The notes under the pieces: model-generated
What the model was told of the DNA's origin: nothing
Databases searched by the model: none
The model's input: the letters and a program-made list of their open reading frames with translations, nothing else
Made by a program: the position numbers and the translations under genes
Part shown: positions 26,930 to 39,338 of the stretch, piece after piece
Position numbering within the stretch: position 1 is the stretch's first letter
Layout of the letters: each line of letters begins with the position of its first letter
Assembly: GCA_913774625.1 (NCBI GenBank)
Contig: CAJYHL010000053.1
Coordinates: forward strand, 62,001 to 126,000
DNA: 64,000 nucleotides
Reading direction: 5' to 3'
DNA from: an uncultured Acidovorax sp.
GTDB lineage: Bacteria > Pseudomonadota > Gammaproteobacteria > Burkholderiales > Burkholderiaceae_C

Positions 26930-28006
26930 TCAGCCCTGTGCGATTTCGCGCCAGATGACGCCCAGCGAGACGATCTTGTCCACACCGCCGCGCTTGATGG
27001 CTTCCTTGGGCATGCCGAACACCACGCAGCTGTCTTCGTCCTGCGCCACGGTGCGCGCGCCCGCCTGGTGCATCTCCAGCAGGCCGGCAGCACCATCGTC
27101 GCCCATGCCGGTCATGATGATGCCCTGAGCATTCGCGCCAGCGCTCTTGGCCACCGAGCGGAACAGCACATCGACGGACGGGCGGTGGCGGTTGACCAAG
27201 GGGCCGTCCACCACCTCGACGTGGTACTGCGCGCCGCTGCGCCGCAGCAGCATGTGGCGCCCGCCGGGCGCGATCAGGGCGCGGCCCGGCATCACGCGGT
27301 CGTTGTTCTCGGCCTCCTTCACCTCGATCTGGCAGAGCTTGTCTAGCCGGCTGGCGAAGGCCGCGGTGAACTTCTCGGGCATGTGCTGGACGATGACGAT
27401 GCCCGGGCAGACGCGCGGCAGGGCCGTGAGCACCTGCTCCAGCGCCTGCGTGCCGCCCGTGGAGGTGCCTATCGCCACCACGCGCTCGGTGGTCTGCGCC
27501 ATCGCCCGCGGCGCGCCCGGCGGCAGGATGACGTCGGCCGTGTGCTTGCTCACCGGCACCAGCGGCTGGGACGGCGCTTCGGCCCGCACGGCCAGCCGCT
27601 TGACGTTGGCGCGGGCCGCCGCCTTGACGGTGGCGATCAGTTCCTCGGCGGCCTCGGAGAGAAAGGTCTTCAGGCCGATGCGAGGCTTGGTCACGATGGC
27701 GACCGCGCCTGCGGCCATGGCCTCCATGGTGGTCCTGGCGCCCTTTTCCGTGAGCGTGGAGCAGATGACCACGGGCGTGGGCCGCTCGGCCATGATCTTG
27801 CGCAGGAAGGTGATGCCGTCCATGCGCGGCATTTCCACGTCCAACAGGATCACGTCGGGCCACTGCTGCTTCATGCGCTGCATGGCCAGGAGCGGGTCGG
27901 CGGCGGCATGCATCACTTCGATGCCCGCAGCCGAGCTCAGCAGGCCCGTCAACACCTGGCGAACGACCGCCGAGTCGTCAACGATCAGCACTTTGATGGA
28001 GGGCAT
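26930..28006 (-). CDS. cheB: Chemotaxis methylesterase/deamidase CheB
   Basis: 358-residue two-domain enzyme that removes methyl groups from receptors. The receiver domain (1-125) begins [14 protein letters not shown], with phospho-acceptor aspartate 56 in [11 protein letters not shown]. The methylesterase domain (about 165-355) has serine in [10 protein letters not shown], histidine in VQHMPEKFT and aspartate in [10 protein letters not shown], the catalytic triad. It follows cheD and cheR in the usual R-D-B order and ends the main chemosensory operon, immediately before the MITE-like element. Confidence 0.97.
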
Positions 28007-28066: not shown

Positions 28067-28555
28067 TCAGGGCTTGGGCACGGTGGAAGGAATCTGCCGC
28101 ACCCAGACGGCGCCGCTGGCGACGTCGAACACCACCTGCCGGTGGCCCTCGCCGAAGAGATGCTCGCTGCGCACGGGAATGCCGCGGTCTGCCAGCAGCT
28201 GCCGGGCCGCCTCGCCATTGCGGGTTCCGACCGACTGTAAGGAAAACAGCGGCTTTCCGGGAAACATATTGCCCCCGCCGAAGATCTTGGCCTCGCACTC
28301 CGCCGCGCGCACGCCTTCCCGATGCAGGCCCCGCACCATCAGTTCGAGCGCCTCGTCGCCGTAGCGCGCATCCAGCTGCGTGCCCGGCTGGCGGGGCCGG
28401 TCCGCCAGCAGGAAGTGCGACATGGCGCCGACGAACCGCCGCGGGTGCCAGAGGGTGATGGCCACGCACGAGCCGAGTATGGTGCGCAAGCGCAGCGTGG
28501 CGTCGGCCACGAAGTACTCTCCCGGCTGCAGGAAGAGGTCTGCGGGCTGGACCAT
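28067..28555 (-). CDS. cheD: Chemoreceptor glutamine deamidase CheD
   Basis: 162 residues from ATG 28555; an in-frame GTG at 28564 would add three residues. CheD deamidates receptor glutamines and can bind CheY-P through CheC. The catalytic cysteine is in TILGSCVAI (about residue 30), followed by the histidine in AMSHFLL, and the family segment KIFGGGNMF is present. It lies between cheR (66 bp upstream) and cheB (60 bp downstream). Confidence 0.95.
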   Translation of the reverse strand: MVQPADLFLQPGEYFVADATLRLRTILGSCVAITLWHPRRFVGAMSHFLLADRPRQPGTQLDARYGDEALELMVRGLHREGVRAAECEAKIFGGGNMFPGKPLFSLQSVGTRNGEAARQLLADRGIPVRSEHLFGEGHRQVVFDVASGAVWVRQIPSTVPKP

Positions 28556-28621
28556 CGGCCGCACGGGGTCATTCCCGGGGCCATGCGCCGCCGGGGCGGT
28601 GGAGGCAGGCCTGCAGCGCCA

Positions 28622-29431
28622 TCAGGGCTTTCTGTAGACCGACGGCGCGACCTGTTCCACGGCGCTGGATATCTCGTGCAGGCTTTCCGAATGGCCGATG
28701 TACAGGTAGCCGCCGGGCTTGAGCAGCGAGAGCACCCGCGCCACGACCTGGCGCTTGGTATCGCCGCTGAAATAGATCATCACGTTGCGCAGGAAGATCA
28801 CGTCGAAGCTGCCGAGATCGGGCAGGCGTTCGTTCAGATTGGCGGGCAGGAAACGGACCTTCTGGCGCAGCTCGCGCATCACCAGCAGCGTGCCGGCCTG
28901 CTCGCCCTGCCCCTTCAGGCAGAAGCGCTTGAGGTAGGGCAGGGGAATGTGGCGGGTGCGCTGGTCGGGATAGTGGCCGGCGCGCGCCCGGGCCAGCACC
29001 CGGCTGCTGATGTCGGTGCCCACCACCTCGAAGGGGCGATCGCCCCGGCAGTCGGCCAGCACCATGGCGATGCTGTAGGCCTCCTCGCCGCTGGAGCTGG
29101 CGGCGCTCCATACACGGAACGGCAGGCCGGGCGGTGCCTGCAGGGCCGCCTCGCGCAGCAGCTCGAAATGCTTGGGCTCGCGGAAGAAGTAGGTTTCGTT
29201 GGTGGTCAGCAGATCGATGGCGATCTGCACTTCCTGCGGGTCGTCCTGGCCCTTGAGCAGCTCGAAATAGGCCCCGTAGCTGGACAGCTGCCGCGCATGC
29301 ACGCGCTTGGCCAGGCGTCCGCAGACCAGGGCCTTCTTGGCGGGAGACAGCGTGATGCCGGCCGCATCGAAGATGAAGCGCTGGAACTGGCCGAACTCCT
29401 GGTCGGAGAGAGGTTTGAGGTTCTGGGACAT
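28622..29431 (-). CDS. cheR: Chemotaxis methyltransferase CheR
   Basis: 269-residue S-adenosylmethionine-dependent enzyme that methylates receptor glutamates. Motifs: TNETYFFREPKHFELL, the SAM-binding WSAASSSGEEAYSIAM, GTDISSRVLARARAGHY and FLRNVMIYF. ATG 29431 (MSQNLKPLSDQEF) is the natural start; the longer frame upstream gives an Arg/Pro-rich extension unlike the family. Three receptors of the island end in pentapeptides that could tether this enzyme. Confidence 0.96.
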   Translation of the reverse strand: MSQNLKPLSDQEFGQFQRFIFDAAGITLSPAKKALVCGRLAKRVHARQLSSYGAYFELLKGQDDPQEVQIAIDLLTTNETYFFREPKHFELLREAALQAPPGLPFRVWSAASSSGEEAYSIAMVLADCRGDRPFEVVGTDISSRVLARARAGHYPDQRTRHIPLPYLKRFCLKGQGEQAGTLLVMRELRQKVRFLPANLNERLPDLGSFDVIFLRNVMIYFSGDTKRQVVARVLSLLKPGGYLYIGHSESLHEISSAVEQVAPSVYRKP

Positions 29432-29573
29432 GGGCGGGAATGGAGGAGCTAGGGCGCGGCCCGGGACACGGCGGCCTGCGGCGGTGCGCCACGACGGCGA
29501 TGCGGGGCGGAGGGACGCTCCGCGTGGAGGGAGGCGTTCTGCGGTTTCATGGCATGTGCGGACGACGTCGCGG

Positions 29574-30809
29574 TCAACGCGGCAGGCGGAATTCGGGCAG
29601 CCGCGCGCCATGGGCCTTGTTCCAGGCCGGCAGCTCGCTCCCCGGCATGGCCTTGGCGATCAGCCATCCCTGGGCCGAGGTGCAGCCGAAGGACTGCAGC
29701 ATGCGCCAGTCCTCCAGCGTCTCCACGCCCTCGGCCACGGTGGACAGGTTCAGCCGGCGCGCCATGTCCAGCGCCGACTCCAGGATCACCCGCAGGCTCT
29801 TGCGCCGGTGGGCGCCGTGGACGAAGGAGCGGTCGATCTTGAGCTCGGTGAAGGGAATGCGGGACAGCTGCTGCATGGACGAAAAACCCGTGCCGTAGTC
29901 GTCGATGGACAGCCCGAAGCCCTTCAGCCGCAAGCGTGCCAGCGCGGCATGGGCCGCGCCCTGCGACTCCACCGCGGTGCTTTCCGTGATCTCCAGCGTG
30001 ATCTGCGACGGATGCAGGCCATGCTGCTGCTGCAGGGCGCATATCTCGGTCACGATGTCGTGCCGCGTCAGCAGCTCCGGCGAGACGTTCACGGCCATGG
30101 TCAGCCGCATGCCGCGGGACTGCCAGAGGGCGCACTGAGCGAAGCTCTGGTCCAGCACGGAGAGCGTCAGCGCGTGGATGAGCGACGTCCGCTCGGCCAG
30201 GGCGATGAACTGATCGGGCGGCACCATGCCCCGTTCGGGGTCGTTCCACCGGGCGAGCGCCTCGACGCCGCGCAGGATGCCGGTATTCGTATCGATCTTG
30301 GGCTGGAAGTAGGGCACGATCTGCCCGCAGCGTATGGCCTCCTCCAGCGCCTGCGCGTCGATGCCCGACGGCATGGCAGACGCCCTCGCGCCGCCCTCGG
30401 CCGCAGCACGCTGCGGCACCAGGCAGGCCTGCAGCGCCTCCTGCAGGTCCTTGCGCTCCAGAGGCTTGCGCAAGGCGCGCTTCACGCTGAAACCCAGCGA
30501 CTGCACGGACTCGATCAGCTCGCTCTCCCGTCCCGACAGCAGCACGATGGGACTGCGCACGCCGCGCAGCTGCAGGGCCTCGACCAGCTCGATGCCGTCC
30601 ATCTCGGGCATTTCGAGATCGATGATCCACAGGTCCGGCGGAGCCTCCAGCAGCGCCGCCCGCTCGAGGGCGTCCAGGCCATGCGCCGCTTCGACGACCC
30701 GGCCGACGCCCAGTTCGCTGCAAAGCCGCGCGGCATGGCGCCGCTGCAGTTCGCTGTCGTCCACGACGAGGACGCAGCAGCGGGCCCAGTGGGACTCGGG
30801 GCCGGTCAT
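29574..30809 (-). CDS. Response regulator with EAL phosphodiesterase output
   Basis: 411 residues. The receiver domain (about 11-130) has DDSE near 17-20 and phospho-acceptor D64 in WIIDLEMPEMDG. A short linker leads to a complete EAL domain (about 155-395): EALARW, NVSPELL, LEITEST, IDDYGTGFSSM, LKIDRSFV, AEGVETLEDW and AQGWLI, all catalytic residues kept. It should hydrolyse cyclic di-GMP in response to phosphorylation, most likely by the CheA of the same operon. It sits between cheW and cheR, so chemosensory signalling appears to be coupled to c-di-GMP turnover. The phosphodonor is inferred from position. Confidence 0.93.
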   Translation of the reverse strand: MTGPESHWARCCVLVVDDSELQRRHAARLCSELGVGRVVEAAHGLDALERAALLEAPPDLWIIDLEMPEMDGIELVEALQLRGVRSPIVLLSGRESELIESVQSLGFSVKRALRKPLERKDLQEALQACLVPQRAAAEGGARASAMPSGIDAQALEEAIRCGQIVPYFQPKIDTNTGILRGVEALARWNDPERGMVPPDQFIALAERTSLIHALTLSVLDQSFAQCALWQSRGMRLTMAVNVSPELLTRHDIVTEICALQQQHGLHPSQITLEITESTAVESQGAAHAALARLRLKGFGLSIDDYGTGFSSMQQLSRIPFTELKIDRSFVHGAHRRKSLRVILESALDMARRLNLSTVAEGVETLEDWRMLQSFGCTSAQGWLIAKAMPGSELPAWNKAHGARLPEFRLPR

Positions 30810-30882: not shown

Positions 30883-31431
30883 TCAGCCTCCTGCCGCCGG
30901 ATCGGCCGGCAGGTCGGCCAGCGCGGCGAGCTCGTCGATGGACAGCGTGCGGTCGAGGTCGAGCAGCACCACGAAGCGCCCCCGCACCTTGCCCATGCCC
31001 TGGATGAAATCGGCACGGATCTGGGCGCCGAAGGCCGGCGGCGGCTCGATGTCGGAGGGGGCGATGTCCAGCACTTCGTTCACGGCATCCACCACCACGC
31101 CGATCACCTGCTGCTGGTCCGCCTGGGCATGGACTTCGACGATGACGATGCAGGTGCGGCGGCCGATCACGGCCGGCGGCCTGCCGAAGCGGGCCTGCAG
31201 ATCGATGACCGGCACCACGGCGCCGCGCAGGTTGATCACCCCGCGCACCGAGCGCGGCATCATGGGCACGGTGGTCAGATCGCCGTATTCGATGATCTCC
31301 TTGATGGCCAGGATGCCGATGGCGAACATCTCGCCACCGAGCTGGAACGTCAGGTACTGGGCCGGGTCGTCGGTCACCGCAGCCCTGGCGGCTGCGCGCG
31401 GAGCGACGGAGTGAGAGGGTGCATCGGTCAT
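30883..31431 (-). CDS. cheW: Chemotaxis coupling protein CheW (main operon)
   Basis: 182-residue CheW adaptor linking receptors to CheA. The motif NLRGAVVPVIDLQARFG is intact, and the domain runs from about residue 20 to 165. It is closely similar to the CheW at 23244-23780, differing mainly at the ends, where this copy has an alanine-rich N-terminus and ends in LADLPADPAAGG. It follows the 4HB-type receptor by 21 bp, the same receptor-to-cheW spacing as in the second unit. Confidence 0.95.
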   Translation of the reverse strand: MTDAPSHSVAPRAAARAAVTDDPAQYLTFQLGGEMFAIGILAIKEIIEYGDLTTVPMMPRSVRGVINLRGAVVPVIDLQARFGRPPAVIGRRTCIVIVEVHAQADQQQVIGVVVDAVNEVLDIAPSDIEPPPAFGAQIRADFIQGMGKVRGRFVVLLDLDRTLSIDELAALADLPADPAAGG

Positions 31432-31452: not shown

Positions 31453-33105
31453 TCAGAAGCGGGTGAACTGGGTCTCGTCCATGTCGTCCGAAGACCCGTT
31501 CGCCACCGCCAGCGGGGCTGCGGACTTGCGCACGGCCTTGGGCTTCGTGGACACCGCGGCGCGGCCGGCACCGCGTGCCGGGCGGCCGGGCACGCTGCCG
31601 CTCAGCTTGAAGAAGCTCATGGCATGCTGCAGCTGCTCGGCCTGGCCGCTCATCTCTTCGGCCGTGGCGGCCAGCTCCTCGGAGCTGGAGGCGTTCTGCT
31701 GCGTGGTCTGGCTCAGCTGGCCCACGGCGGAGTTGATCTGGCCCACGCCCGAAGATTGCTCCTCGCTGGCCGCCGTGATCTCCTGCACCAGGTCCGAGGT
31801 CTTCTTGATGCTGGGCACCATTTCGTCCAGCAGGTTGCCCGCACGCTCGGCCAGCTGCACGCTGGAGCTGGCCACGTCGCCGATCTCCTGCGCCGCCACC
31901 TGGCTGCGCTCGGCCAGCTTGCGCACCTCGGCCGCCACCACCGCGAAGCCCTTGCCGTGCTCGCCGGCACGGGCCGCCTCGATGGCCGCGTTCAGCGCCA
32001 GCAGATTGGTCTGGTAGGCGATGTCGTCGATGATGTTGATCTTCTGCGCGATCTGCTTCATGGCCGCCACCGTGGCCTTGACGGCCTCGCCGCCTTCGGT
32101 CGCTTCCGAGGCGGCCTTGGTGGCCATGCTGTCGGTGAGCTTGGCGTTCTCGGTGTTCTGCGAGATGGAGGCCGTCATCTCTTCCAGCGAGGCGCTGGTC
32201 TCTTCCACGCCGGCGGCCTGCTCGCTGGCGGCCTGGCTCAGCGACTGCGCCGTGGCGCTCACCTCCTCCGAAGCGCCCGCCAGGGCTTCGGCGCCGCTGT
32301 TGACGTCGGTCACCACGCTGGAGAGCCTCTCCACCATGTTCTTCATGGCGGCCAGCACGCTGGTGGTGTCGCCGTTGCGGGTCGCGATCTGCAGGGTCAG
32401 GTCACCGCCCGCCACGCTGTTGGCGATGTCGGCCACGTAGGCGGGCTCGCCGCCGAGCTGCCGCACCAGCGACCGGGTGATGACGAAGGCCAGCACCAGC
32501 GCCACCAGCGCGCTGGCCACCAGCACGGTAATGGTCAGGGAGCGCGACTGCGCATAGGTGGCAGCGGCATCCGCCGCTACCTTGTCGCCACCGGCCACAT
32601 TGATGTCGCCCAGTTGGTCCGACAGCGTGCGCACCACGTTGTAGGCCTTGAGGGATTCGCCGTCCAGAACCACCCGGGCTTCGCTGGCATTGCCCTGCTG
32701 CACGAAGGCCATGAGCCGGTCGTGCTCGGCGTACATGCTCTCCATGGCCACCTTGGCCTGGTCGAAGAGGCGGCGCTCCTCGGGCAGCACCACCAGCTTG
32801 CCGTAGTCCTCCCACTGCTTGCGCGTCGCGGCGATGCGGTCGAGGCCTTCCTTGGTGACCTCCCGCAGTGTCGCGGCATCCGTCGTGAGCAGCGCACGCA
32901 TCTCCAGCACCCGCAGGCGGTTGACGTTGGACTTGCTCAGCATGATGAGCTTGACGCTGGGCAGCCAGATGGTCGCGACCTCCTCGGTGGAGCGGTTGAC
33001 CGTGGCCAGTTGCGCGATGGCATAGACGCCCAGGCCGATCATCAGGGCAAGCACGATGACGAAGGATCCGAAGAGCTTGGTCGCTAGTTTCATTTGACGG
33101 AACAT
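31453..33105 (-). CDS. Methyl-accepting chemotaxis protein (4HB-like sensor)
   Basis: 550-residue receptor with two transmembrane helices (about 11-31 and 190-210) flanking a helical periplasmic region of about 150 residues with the look of a four-helix-bundle MCP sensor. A HAMP domain follows (about 212-265, [20 protein letters not shown]). The signalling domain ends in QFTRF, fitting the CheR-tethering pattern. An AGGAG ribosome site lies about 10 bp upstream of ATG 33105, which favours this start over the ATG four codons later. Its signalling domain is nearly identical to the next receptor's. Confidence 0.94.
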
Positions 33106-33232: not shown

Positions 33233-35044
33233 TCAATAGCGCGCGAAATCGGCCTCGTCCACGCTCTCGGCCAGCGCCGGTTCGGCCTGGGCCGTCCGGG
33301 CCACGGGCCTGCTGCGCACGGCTGCCGCCGGCTGCTTCAGGTTCAGCCGGCCGCGCGGAACGGGGGCGGCGAACTTGCCCCGCGCGGCGCTGCCGCCCAG
33401 GGTGAAGAAACCCATGGTCTGCTGCAGCTGCTCGGCCTGGCCGCTCATCTCCTCGGCCGTGGCGGCCAGCTCCTCGGAGCTGGAGGCGTTCTGCTGCGTG
33501 GTCTGGCTCAGCTGGCCCACGGCGGAGTTGATCTGGCCCACGCCCGAGGACTGCTCTTCGCTGGCCGCCGTGATTTCCTGCACCAGGTCCGAGGTCTTCT
33601 TGATGCTGGGCACCATCTCGCCCAGCAGGCGGCCTGCACGCTCGGCCAGCTGCACGCTGGAGCTGGCCACGTCACTGATCTCCTGCGCCGCCACCTGGCT
33701 GCGCTCGGCCAGCTTGCGCACCTCGGCCGCCACCACGGCGAAGCCCTTGCCGTGCTCGCCGGCACGGGCCGCCTCGATAGCCGCGTTCAGCGCCAGCAGA
33801 TTGGTCTGGTAGGCGATGTCGTCGATGATGTTGATCTTCTGGGCAATCTGCTTCATGGCGACCACCGTGGCCTGCACCGCCTCGCCGCCTTCCGCCGCCT
33901 CGGAGGCGGCCTTGGTGGCCATGCTGTCGGTGAGCTTGGCGTTCTCGGTGTTCTGCGAGATGGAAGCCGTCATCTCTTCCAGCGAAGCGCTGGTCTCCTC
34001 CACGCCGGCGGCCTGCTCACTGGCGGCCTGGCTCAGCGACTGGGCCGTGGCGCTGACCTCTTCCGCCGCGCCGGCGAGCGCTTCCGCGCCGCTGTTGACT
34101 TCGGCCACGATGTCCGAGAGGCTGCTCACCGTCTTGTTGACGTATTCCTTCATCTCGCCGAAGGCGCCCTGGTATTGCGCGGTGATGGTCTGGGTGAGGT
34201 CGCCATTGGCCAGCGCGCCCATCACGCGGACCACGTCGTTGATGCTCTCGCCCGACATGCGCACCATGTCCTTGACCGTGCTCAGCAGGCTGGTCTGGTC
34301 GCCGGGCCGGGTGGCGACCTGCACGGAGAAGTCGCCCTTGGCGACCTGGCGCATCACCTCGGCGGCGTAGGCGGGTTCGCCGCCGAGCACGCTCTGCAGC
34401 CCGCGCACGATCACGAAGGCGATGACCGCCGCCAGGGCGACCGCCAGCGCGCTGCCGGCGACGAGCACGAGCTTGGTCGTGGACTGCATGGCCTCCGCCT
34501 CCTTCGACCGTACGGCCAGCAGGTCGCTTTCGGCGCTGCGGGCCTGGGCCAGCAGTTCACGCATGCGGTCCATGTGCTGCTTGCCCTTGGCCGCGCTCAC
34601 GCTGGCCACCACGGTGTCCATGGACGCCTTGCCGTCGCTCACGGAGCGGCGCAGCGCGATCTCCGGCTCCAGCACGCGGCCCACCCATTCGTCCCGGGAG
34701 GCCAGCACGTTCGCCAGGCGTTCCTGCTGCTTGGGGTTGTCCTCGGTCAGCTTCTTCGCGTTGTCCAGATGGGTCTTGAAGCTGGCCAGGCCGGACTTGT
34801 AGGGGTCCAGGAAGGCCTCTTCCCCGCTCAGGGCGAAGCCGCGCTCGCCGGTTTCCACGTTGACCAGCGCGGTGAGCATGCCGTCCACCTCGGACATCAC
34901 CTCGTAGGTGTGGACGTTCCAGCGGTTCGCCTCGTTCAGCGCCCCGAAGTTGACATAGGCCACGGTGCTCAGCACGAGCAGGATGGCCAGGACGGCGGCG
35001 AAGCCCGCATACAGACGGGTGGCGACTTTGAGGTTCTTGAACAT
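33233..35044 (-). CDS. Methyl-accepting chemotaxis protein (CHASE3-like sensor)
   Basis: 603-residue receptor. One helix (about 12-31), then a periplasmic region with [17 protein letters not shown], the hallmark of CHASE3, then a second helix (about 190-210). HAMP follows (about 212-290), and the remainder is the signalling domain with the [20 protein letters not shown] tip. The C-terminus DFARY fits the CheR-tethering pattern. It lies 44 bp after cheA. The signal is unknown; CHASE3 ligands are generally unidentified. Confidence 0.94.
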
Positions 35045-35088: not shown

Positions 35089-37326
35089 TCAGAACTGCGC
35101 TGCGCTCAGCGCTTCGGCCGCCGCCCCCGCCTGCTCAATGGCCTGTGCGGCCAGGGCGGGCACGTCGAGGATCAGCGCCACCTGGCCGCTGCCCAGGATG
35201 CTGGAGCCGCTGATGCCGCGCAGATGCGCGAACATCGGAGCCAGGGGCTTGATGACGGTCTGTGCCTCGCCCAGCAGGCGGTCCACGATCAGGCCGAAGC
35301 GCTGCGTGCCGTGGCGGACCACCACGATGCTCTGGCGGTTGCCCGCCGTGCCCGGCACGGAGAACATCACGCGCAGCCGCGCGAAGGGCAGCACCTGCCC
35401 GCGCAGCTCGGTGTAGTCGTGGCCCGTGTCATCGCGGAATTCCACGCATTCCTCGATGCTCTCCAGCGGCAGCACGAACACGGATTCGCCCACCGAGATC
35501 TGGAAGCCGTTGATGATGGCCAGCGTCAGCGGCAGGCGCACGGTGACCTTGGTGCCCGCGCCCGGCTGGCTGGACAGCGAGACGCTGCCGCGCAGCGCCG
35601 TGATGTTGCGCTTGACCACGTCCATGCCCACGCCGCGGCCCGAGAGGTTGGTCACCTGCTCGGCCGTGGAGAAGCCGGGCTCGAAGATCAGCTGGTAGAT
35701 CTCGTCGTCGCTCAGCGCCTTGCCGGGGTCCACCAGCCCGCGTTCCGTGGCCTTGGCCAGGATGCGCTCGCGCGAGAGGCCGCCGCCGTCGTCGCTGACC
35801 TCGATCACGATGCTGCCGGAGTCGTGGTAGGCGTTGAGCGTCAGGGTGCCATAGGCCGGCTTGCCGCGCTCCAGCCGCACGGCCACCGGCTCGATGCCGT
35901 GGTCCATGCTGTTGCGCACCAGGTGCGTGAGCGGGTCGGTGATCTTCTCGACCACGGTCTTGTCCAGCTCGGTGTCTTCGCCGTGCACGGCCAGCACGAT
36001 GTCCTTGCCGATCTCGCGCGAGACGTCGCGCACCATGCGCTGGAAGCGGTTGAAGGTGCCGCCGATCTTGACCATGCGCAGCTGCAGCGCGCTGTCGCGC
36101 ACCTCCTGCACCAGGCCGTTGAGCATGGAATGCGCCTCCTGCAGCGCGGCGCTCTGCACGCGCATGCCGGCCTGGGTCGCGGTGGCCGTGGCCGTGATCA
36201 GCTCGCCCACCAGATCGACCAGGCGGTCGAGCTTTTCGGCATCCACGCGGACCGACTGGCTTTCTGCCGGCCGCGCGCCGCCGTCCTTGCCCTGCATGGC
36301 GCCGGCCGCCTTGATCTGCTGCTGGCGCTCCAGCGCGGCCCGCACCACCGGAGGCTCCACGCGGCCCTGCTCGATCAGCAGCATGCCGAGGGGTTTTTCC
36401 AGCGGGCCTTCGTCGCGCTGGCGGTACTGCAGCTGCAGGGCCTGCTCCAGTTCGCGGCGCGTGAGGCTGCCGCACTGCACCAGCATGTCGCCCAGCCGCA
36501 GGGCGCCGCCGTCATCGTCCTCGCCCAGGTTGCCGAGCAGCTCGATGTACTGCGCCACCTGGCTGTGCGGCGGCAGGATGTGGACCAGGCAGTCGTCCAG
36601 CACGAACTCGAAGGCGCTCTCGATCTCGGCCTTGCTGGAGCCGCTGCGCAGCACGATCTCGAAGCCCAGGTAGCACGACTCGGCGTCCATGGCCTCCAGT
36701 CCGGGCAGTCGGTCGGTCAGCGTGACGATGCCGACGATCGTTCCCAGCTTCTTCAGGTAGCGCAGGAAGGAGATCGGATCCATGCCGTTGCGCAGCACGT
36801 CGGAGCCGAAGCGCAGCGAGATGTGCCAGTGATCGGCATTGCCGTGGGCCGTCTCCCCGGCTTGCGGCGCCGGTACGGGTCGAGCCGCACCGGCGGCCCC
36901 GGCCGCAGGTGCGGCGGATGAGGCCGGGCCGTCCAGCAGCTGGTGGAGCCCGGCCAGCAGCGGCTCGGCCTCGGCCTGCAGCTGCGCGTCGGCCTGGTCA
37001 TGGCCGGCTGCGGCCACGTCCACCAGATGGCCGATATGGTCGCGGCAGCCCAGCAGCAGGGTGATGACGTCGTCGTCGATCGCGATGTCGCCCTCGCGGA
37101 CCCGGTCCAGCACGCTTTCGGCCACATGGGCGAAGTCCACGATGAAGTCCAGCCCGAAGAGGCCGGCCGAGCCCTTGATGGTGTGGGCCGCGCGGAAGAT
37201 GGCGTTGATGGCGTCGCTCGGGTCGGCCTCCTGGCGCACGCCCAGCAGGGCCAGCTCCATGTCCTCGAGGAGCTCGCGGCTTTCGGTAATGAAGGCCTGC
37301 AGGGCCTGTTCCATGTCCATGCTCAT
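35089..37326 (-). CDS. cheA: Chemotaxis histidine kinase CheA with tandem MshEN-like motifs
   Basis: 745 residues. The Hpt domain (1-110) has phospho-histidine 48 in HTIKGSAG. Residues 166-265 resemble a P2 CheY-binding domain. Residues 277-335 hold two copies of the pattern RLG..., G at +9, L at +16 and +20, Q at +23 (R277-Q300 and P312-Q335), matching the MshEN c-di-GMP-binding pattern; the second copy lacks the arginine. Dimerisation (about 358-430), HATPase (N-box [10 protein letters not shown] 468-477, G1 DDGGGLS, G2 GRGVGMDVV 563-571) and CheW-like regulatory domains (about 605-740) follow. ATG 37326 overlaps the STAS stop. It phosphorylates CheY, CheB and probably the REC-EAL protein. 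Confidence 0.95.
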
Positions 37327-37649
37327 GGCGCCTCCCCGGGCAGCGCATCGGCGGCGGGCTGCAGGACATCGCCGAAGTAGTCGCCGTTCAGCGCGAACAG
37401 CTCGAACAGTTCGCGGACCGCCGCGCTCGGGGCGGACAGGCGCAGCGGCAGGCCGCGCGCATGCAGGTCGCGCCGCACGGCCAGCAGCAGCTGCACGCCG
37501 GCGCTGTCGATCTCGCTGACCCCGCTCAGGTCCAGCTCCAGCCCGGCAGGGCTGTCGGAGAGGGCCGCCAGCAGGACCTGGCGCAGCTCGGCGGCCCGGT
37601 AGATGTTGAGTTCGCCGTCGAGCGGCAGGACGGTCAGGGCATCGCTCAT
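37323..37649 (-). CDS. STAS-domain protein
   Basis: 108-residue single STAS domain, as in anti-sigma-factor antagonists. The conserved SEIDSAGVQLLLAV segment holds the likely phosphorylatable serine (about residue 50). It overlaps cheY at its start and cheA at its end, both as ATGA, so it is made together with the kinase. STAS proteins in chemosensory operons have been tied to regulation of non-motility outputs, but no partner kinase (RsbW type) is seen here. Confidence 0.9.
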   Translation of the reverse strand: MSDALTVLPLDGELNIYRAAELRQVLLAALSDSPAGLELDLSGVSEIDSAGVQLLLAVRRDLHARGLPLRLSAPSAAVRELFELFALNGDYFGDVLQPAADALPGEAP

Positions 37650-38052: not shown

Positions 38053-39216
38053 TCAGAAGAAGGTGACTTCTTCCTGCGGTGCGGGTGCGGGCGTGCCGCC
38101 CGCCGGCCCGGAAGTGGCCGCGCTGTGAAGATGGCGTTCGCTGTCCATGGCGTAGGTGGCCTCCAGCTCGTCCAGCAGGCCCTGGGCGTCGAGCGGCTCC
38201 AGCTCGCCGCTGCGGGCATAGCGGTCGCGGTGCTCCTGCAGCACGCCCGGCACGCGCTGGATGTTGTCGCGCACATGGCTCAGTACCTGGCTGACCCGGT
38301 CCTGGAACTGCAGCTGCACCAGGGAGTCGTTGATTTCGTGCTGGATCTCGCGGCCCTCGTCGCGCAGGACCTGGGCCGACTGCGCCAGCTCCGTCGTCAT
38401 CTGCAGGAAGGACCCCAGCACCTGGTCGATCCGGCTCTCGGAGTCGGAGATGACGTGCTGCTCCTGCTGCTTGGAAGCCTCCGCCGCAGCACGGGCGTCG
38501 TCGATGGCGAGGTTGATGGCCCGGACCTTCTCGATGATGCGCTGGCCCGTCTCGCCCGACAGCCGGGACAGCGAGCGCACCTCCTGCGCCACCTGCGCAA
38601 AGCCCCGTCCCCGGTCGCCCGCGTGCGCCGCCTCGATGGTGGCATTGATGGCCAGCAGGTTGGTCTGCTGCGCGATCCGCGAGACGGCGGCGGCCATCTC
38701 CTGCATCTCCGCGACGAAGCGCTGCAGCCCTTCGACCTTGCTGAGCATCTCGGCCTTGCCGTGCATGGCTTCGCGCAGCGAGGCGATCAGCTGCTGCAGC
38801 TGCTGCTGGCTCTGGACGTACACCGCGTCGGCTGCGGCCTCCTGGGATTGCGCGCCGGTGGCGCCGGATTGCAGGGAGGTGCGTTCGAGACGCTGGACGA
38901 TGACGGAAAAGCGCGTGCTGAGCGCAGCGATCGCCTCTTCCGTCTGCTCCCGGGAAGACTCGATGTGCCGGGACCAGACGGGGGCCAGCTGCGCGCTGAA
39001 GGCCTCGACGTCGGCCAGCCATCGCTCCCGCTCAGCCGTGGCCAGGCCCTCGCCCTGCCGGGCCTGGCGCCAGGCCAGACCGCCTCCGATCAGCAGCGCC
39101 GCCGCGCACAGCACGCCCGGGACGCTGAAGGAGGAAAGGGCCAATGAAAACACCGCGCCCAACGCTGAAAGGGCGGGGGCGGCAAGCACGCGGAAGTTCA
39201 GCCGGTCTGTGGTCAT
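38053..39216 (-). CDS. Short methyl-accepting chemotaxis-like protein
   Basis: 387 residues from ATG 39216. Two adjacent transmembrane helices (about 9-28 and 32-48) with almost no external loop, then a coiled-coil region and a shortened signalling tip [20 protein letters not shown]-like (about 190-250). There is no HAMP, and the far C-terminal adaptation region is missing or altered. It ends EEVTFF. It is the first gene of the island, so it may be the dedicated receptor of this CheA. Function as a receptor is inferred from the tip sequence. Confidence 0.85.
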
Positions 39217-39338
39217 CTCAGGGCCCCGAAACGGCTCATGGGTAGTCTTTGCTATCCAAGAGAAGGCAAAAATCAATCCCTTGAAAATAACAGGATGTGA
39301 CAAATAGTCGTAGGAAGTTACCTCACCCTAATCCCCTC

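Follow-up and report, generated by a model that had tools for sequence, protein, structure and literature searches.

Cyclic-di-GMP (c-di-GMP) acts on motility at the motor, the receptors and the adaptation enzymes, and one cited paper reportedly concerns a c-di-GMP adaptor together with a methyltransferase of the chemotaxis system. The described proteins closest to the one analyzed here carry MshEN domains. The published MshEN motif, RLGxx(LVI)(LVI)xxG(LVI)(LVI)xxxxLxxxLxxQ, occurs in two copies set apart by a spacer of 5 residues, and in MshE the ligand is contacted by G at position 2 (R being position 0), by two triangles of L residues (positions 1, 16 and 20 across the motifs) and by Q at position 23 (PMC5013675). 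Exchange of Gly11 in MshE abolished binding and changes of the hydrophobic residues caused a more than tenfold loss, the loss being at most fivefold for changes of Arg9, Asp12 or Gln32 (PMC5013675). The isolated N-subdomain of MshE binds c-di-GMP, and I for L at positions 16 and 20 of motif II had a 2.4-fold cost in an engineered domain (PMC12002112). In PilF of Thermus thermophilus, the GSPII-C domain, whose motif II opens with P335, binds with a dissociation constant near 0.3-0.5 uM, and GSPII-B, where K and L substitute for R, binds at 6 nM (PMC11731258, PMC12002112). E. coli NfrB binds c-di-GMP as well (PMC8669469). Here, a 64,000-nucleotide stretch of a contig from an uncultured Acidovorax sp. 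(the window, to which all coordinates refer) was analyzed, in which the chemotaxis kinase gene cheA encodes a putative domain of this type.

The Pfam domains Hpt, H-kinase_dim, HATPase_c and CheW identify the gene product as a CheA. Its residues 277-335, which correspond exactly to window positions 36322-36498, are, as judged from sequence profiles and a predicted structure, an MshEN N-subdomain that interrupts the P2-P3 linker (Table 1). The placement between P2 and the dimerisation domain, as given in a preliminary description of this DNA, is confirmed by the domain layout obtained with Pfam and AlphaFold2, the match of PF07194 to the P2-like domain being weak (E 0.19 in the Pfam scan).

Several comparisons of sequence and of predicted fold support homology between the insert and the N-subdomain with which MshE, PilF and PilB bind c-di-GMP. 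The NCBIfam model NF053729, which describes the c-di-GMP motif pair, aligned over its full length with residues 277-335 of the whole CheA (E 6.2e-8, 32.3 bits) and scored 39.1 bits on a 91-residue fragment of it, the curated cut-off being 38 bits. It also matched 25 of 25 rows (best E 2.6e-13) of alignment A1, which consists of the window insert and 24 relatives picked for having it (30 ortholog loci, of which 28 were extracted, L011 and L031 not being among them, and 3 without the insert were omitted). Ten columns of A1 are invariant, including G279, G314 and the final Q of both motifs. Searched against PDB sequences, the A1 profile gave 15 matches at E<=10, the first 14 of which were PilF, PilB or MshE. 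A profile built from ATPases only (17 motif regions of the 29 extracted, regions without two clear motifs being omitted) found the window CheA over residues 275-339 with E 1.6e-14 in a search of one protein, and the score of the CheA region was 45.0 bits as compared to at most 9.8 bits for residue shuffles (2000 made, 1948 scored). Among 4836 open reading frames (ORFs), which came from loci fetched around CheA matches and not from whole genomes, the same profile had 136 matches at E<=1e-3; every one was a CheA, and the set contained 147 CheAs in all. In hhalign, the ATPase alignment scored 97.9%, as compared to 0.2-0.5% for controls consisting of the Hpt, P2 and P3 domains. Structure prediction, proposed as a check in the preliminary description, yielded an AlphaFold2 model in which the insert is a four-helix bundle that superposes at 1.3-1.9 A on PilF and MshE with c-di-GMP bound; this comparison was a second look at Foldseek matches and covers the families on that list.

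A profile search against MshEN/T2SSE_N had been proposed as well, and its outcome depended on the model used. The Pfam model of that name, PF05157, had no match in CheA, in the insert alone or in A1 members in Pfam scans; the positive results are those of NF053729 and of the ATPase-only profile. Wherever the motifs are recognisable in ATPases of the relatives, PF05157 aligns only past motif II, which explains why Pfam misses the CheA insert and renders this test uninformative for the motif pair. Judged by PF05157, the part absent from CheA is the C-subdomain. Since the model starts past the motif subdomain, as seen in loci L033-L061, Pfam-based surveys may overlook stand-alone c-di-GMP motif pairs. 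In a separate observation, the Walker-motif ATPases of loci L001, L047, L050, L057, L059 and L061, which belong to this group, have kept the PF05157 part and carry decayed motif halves, the final Q of motif II being among the losses.

At the level of single residues, motif I fits the MshEN pattern as first described, the letters R, L and G at its start, L16, L20 and the final Q all being present; its +10 is S. The second motif at 312-335 with P for R was also recognized correctly; the L claimed for its +16 is V, L being found there in motif I only, and R at +10 is a further departure beyond the one described. In both motifs position 2 is G and position 23 is Q (G279, Q300, G314, Q335), and the consensus R at position 0 is present as R277 and replaced by P312 in motif II. 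Because GSPII-B of PilF has K and L there and still binds, the R that opens each motif is, by this analogy, a consensus letter and not a defining one. The spacer indeed comprises 11 residues; the usual length of about 23 with which it had been compared does not agree with the published value of 5 (PMC5013675), so that the CheA spacer is longer than usual, not shorter, and the doubt about binding that was based on a short spacer weakens.

The same variant recurs throughout the family. Two motif-like windows, located with neither Q nor R as an anchor, are present in 117 of 126 non-redundant CheAs, and Q closes both motifs in 115 of the 117, the exceptions being L096, where the insert is absent, and L202, where it has decayed. 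Motif II has P at position 0 in 77 and V at +16 in 105 of 115 CheAs, so both residues are a family trait and not decay in the window; R at +10 is rarer (7/115). The doubt that the absent arginine had cast on ligand binding is therefore weakened: P is the usual start of motif II in this group, and GSPII-C, a measured binder, has P too. Taken together, the alignments support conservation of most ligand-contact positions.

Like the N-subdomain of V. cholerae MshE (PDB 5HTL), the CheA insert has tandem 24-residue motifs in a predicted four-helix bundle, its AlphaFold2 model overlaying MshE at 1.9 A over 60 residues; unlike MshE, it lacks the C-terminal MshEN subdomain, resides in a CheA instead of an ATPase, has a spacer of 11 instead of 5 residues, and shows P at 0, R at +10 and V at +16 in motif II. 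As in CheA, motif II of PilF GSPII-C has P at 0, V at +16 and Q at +23 (the V and a GSPII-C spacer of 7 residues were read off the alignment), and GSPII-B is among the best structural matches of the model. The GSPII domains of PilF, a pilus ATPase, differ in having a C-subdomain and, in GSPII-C, also a third motif. NfrB resembles CheA in that MshEN motifs are attached to a different enzyme type, but it is a membrane glycosyltransferase with the domain at its C-terminus. When the A1 profile was run over the whole genome from which the window derives, it detected, apart from this CheA, an NfrB-like glycosyltransferase (E 3.4e-6) and a single site no better than chance (E 0.28). The NfrB-like protein (L210:37-1749; contig C39 near 93037) carries a C-terminal MshEN motif pair scoring 51.6 bits with NF053729, above the cut-off; its motif II likewise opens with P, and it is a second predicted c-di-GMP receptor of MshEN type in this genome.

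Based on relatives that have been solved or measured, binding of c-di-GMP by the CheA insert can be inferred, and we propose that the MshEN N-subdomain binds one c-di-GMP and thereby tunes phosphorelay output, a proposal to which we assign a probability of roughly three in four. The four-helix bundle of two 24-residue half-sites would hold one c-di-GMP, with motif I as one half-site and the variant motif II (P at 0 and V at +16, as in PilF GSPII-C) as the other. The ligand would close or stiffen the bundle beside P3, to which the bundle is joined by a linker (residues 344-359) of low confidence in the AlphaFold2 model; in its c-di-GMP-bound form the bundle would alter the access of P1/P2 to the kinase core, and phosphorelay output would thus follow cell-wide c-di-GMP. 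That kinase activity would change, and whether it would rise or fall, is pure inference.

Several observations weigh against this proposal. Three letters of motif II (P at 0, R at +10, V at +16) deviate from the consensus, and the strict consensus of motif II was found in 0 of 117 CheAs; the insert is without contact to a C-subdomain; Gln is dispensable in MshE and PilF, the PilF Q190E and Q218E structures containing ligand; and the Z scores of the structure comparison carry a tool warning for helical bundles. The last two points would also suit an MshEN_N fold that has lost its ligand and now acts as a spacer or as a docking site for proteins, as in Xanthomonas PilB, whose N-domain was solved in complex with PilZ; this rival we regard as improbable given the conserved ligand-contact positions, albeit deserving of consideration. 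The variation in the motif II half-site might instead point to another dinucleotide or nucleotide, and MshE does bind cGAMP weakly (dissociation constant 330 uM; PMC7288161); yet both guanine-pairing glycines of MshE are retained in CheA as G279 and G314, invariant in the 25 rows, which makes a different ligand very unlikely. Finally, the insert could be a helical segment of another family unrelated to MshEN, e.g., DUF4388/PATAN, since DUF4388 was the sole Pfam signal for the window insert alone (E 0.058-0.084) and appeared at E<=1 in 13 of 25 A1 members (best 0.0068). However, NF053729, the PDB profile search, hhalign and the fold all indicate MshEN_N across both motifs, and membership in an unrelated family is hardly credible.

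Both beta- and gammaproteobacteria contain the module, although it is missing here and there. Of 369 genomes of the class, 33 had a match that covers P2 together with the insert (profile start <=4 and end >=166, counted manually), and the named relatives belong to Burkholderiales, Nitrosomonadales, Rhodocyclales, Pseudomonadales, Methylococcales and Chromatiales; orthologous cheA was found in 7 of the 17 genomes of the window's genus (E 0). Matches in 12 genomes outside the class were weaker; the one inspected, L241, has a CheA with both motifs and almost no spacer between them. In a quick tree of the kinase part of 108 CheAs, in which 39 of 105 forks are open, the 11 proteins without the insert were scattered. 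A single clade of insert-less CheAs is not supported (10 changes, at least 5 of them forced; shuffling gave about 10.6 on average). Repeated loss of the insert is the simplest reading of these sequences, repeated gain being the alternative.

Regarding its genetic context, the CheA, whose chemosensory class might be F7, belongs to a second chemotaxis cluster with the order MCP-like protein (methyl-accepting chemotaxis protein, MCP), CheY, STAS, CheA, MCPs, CheW, REC-EAL, CheR, CheD and CheB (Table 1). The order MCP-like, CheY, STAS, CheA is identical in the 7 Pseudomonas loci examined. P. fluorescens F113, a relative of P. brassicacearum, has this cluster too (L136). In F113, cheA2 and cheA3 mutants swim more poorly, and cheA3 is required under denitrification (PMC4498747). 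It is likely that CheA2 or CheA3 of F113 is a member of the insert-bearing family.

Table 1. Features of the putative c-di-GMP-responsive CheA and its gene cluster in the 64,000-nucleotide window.
Feature	Position	Strand	Basis or remark
CheA histidine kinase, 745 amino acids	35089..37326	minus	ORF; order P1 Hpt, P2-like, MshEN_N insert, P3, P4, P5
P2-like alpha/beta domain, residues 167-251	36574..36828	minus	AlphaFold2 secondary structure; conserved in alignment A3
Predicted MshEN_N four-helix domain, residues 272-345	36292..36513	minus	AlphaFold2; ATPase-only profile covers 275-339
Motif I, residues 277-300 (R277, L278, G279, L293, L297, Q300)	36427..36498	minus	NF053729 match starts at 277
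Spacer, residues 301-311, 11 amino acids	36394..36426	minus	length range 5 to 24 among 115 CheAs
Motif II, residues 312-335 (P312, L313, G314, V328, L332, Q335)	36322..36393	minus	NF053729 match stops at 335
P3 dimerisation domain, residues 356-415	36082..36261	minus	PF02895; AlphaFold2
MCP-like protein, no sensor domain by Pfam (called soluble)	38053..39303	minus	MCPsignal
CheY-like receiver, 122 amino acids	37646..38014	minus	ORF; CheY-like matches adjoin CheA in relatives; named from sequence
STAS protein, adjoins cheA	37323..37649	minus	Pfam
MCP with CHASE3 sensor	33233..35044	minus	Pfam
MCP with 4HB sensor	31453..33105	minus	Pfam
CheW (putative)	30883..31431	minus	ORF; similar ORFs in relatives; name from sequence and gene order
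REC-EAL protein, 411 amino acids from chosen ATG	29574..30809	minus	PF00563 E 2.3e-70, PF00072 E 9.3e-19
CheR (putative; start codon uncertain)	28622-29611	minus	ORF; similar ORFs in relatives; name from sequence and gene order
CheD (putative)	28067-28564	minus	ORF; similar ORFs in relatives; name from sequence and gene order
CheB (putative)	26930-28006	minus	ORF; similar ORFs in relatives; name from sequence and gene order

The REC-EAL protein retains the receiver D and the EAL motifs, which were located in the sequence by the residues taken to be catalytic. A closed c-di-GMP loop within the operon had been suggested earlier; a REC-EAL with intact motifs does lie in the cluster of the window, but the suggestion is weakened because 32 of 41 insert-bearing clusters are without REC-EAL, for which reason such a loop was rejected as the explanation for the domain. 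For these counts, in which EAL was detected by similarity to the EAL of the window only, CheB or at least 6.9 kb downstream had to be in view, and loci with short flanks (7 with the insert, 1 without) were left uncounted. The 9 insert-bearing clusters with REC-EAL comprise 6 from the window's genus, plus L073, L075 and L086, as compared to 0 of 8 insert-less clusters (Fisher p 0.32); for any EAL match, 13 of 41 insert-bearing clusters were counted (p 0.09). As 6 of the 9 are from one genus, no association between insert and REC-EAL is claimed, and as only 9 of 41 have one, the CheA domain does not depend on it. The host probably makes c-di-GMP, since its genome has 49 GGDEF matches. A tentative extension, which we hold to be less probable than not, is that CheA reads c-di-GMP directly and in the window's lineage also drives the cluster REC-EAL in a feedback loop, the wider family reading the cell-wide pool.

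With respect to prior knowledge, CheA has already been named among MshEN proteins, in one sentence of Wang et al. 2016 given, in the available part of the paper, without sequence, position or taxa (PMC5013675); that sentence may refer to this very family. The NCBI model finds the insert as well. No report of c-di-GMP binding by CheA via an MshEN domain was found in a search that covered neither subscription papers nor supplements; the available parts of PMC12943098, PMC10212136, PMC7288161, PMC10519070, PMC10333796, PMC12564702 and PMC5812497 hold nothing further on CheA, and PMC8669469 mentions chemotaxis in general terms. New here are the placement of the insert relative to P2 and P3, the variant nature of the second half-site, the extent to which the module is conserved and its breadth, the absence pattern and the gene context. 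If the proposed binding holds true, c-di-GMP would act on the chemotaxis kinase through a receptor domain that CheA has kept in beta- and gammaproteobacteria, and one could test directly how swimming is coupled to life on surfaces. The chemotaxis switch itself may thus sense c-di-GMP directly, in many related bacteria with the same CheA layout.
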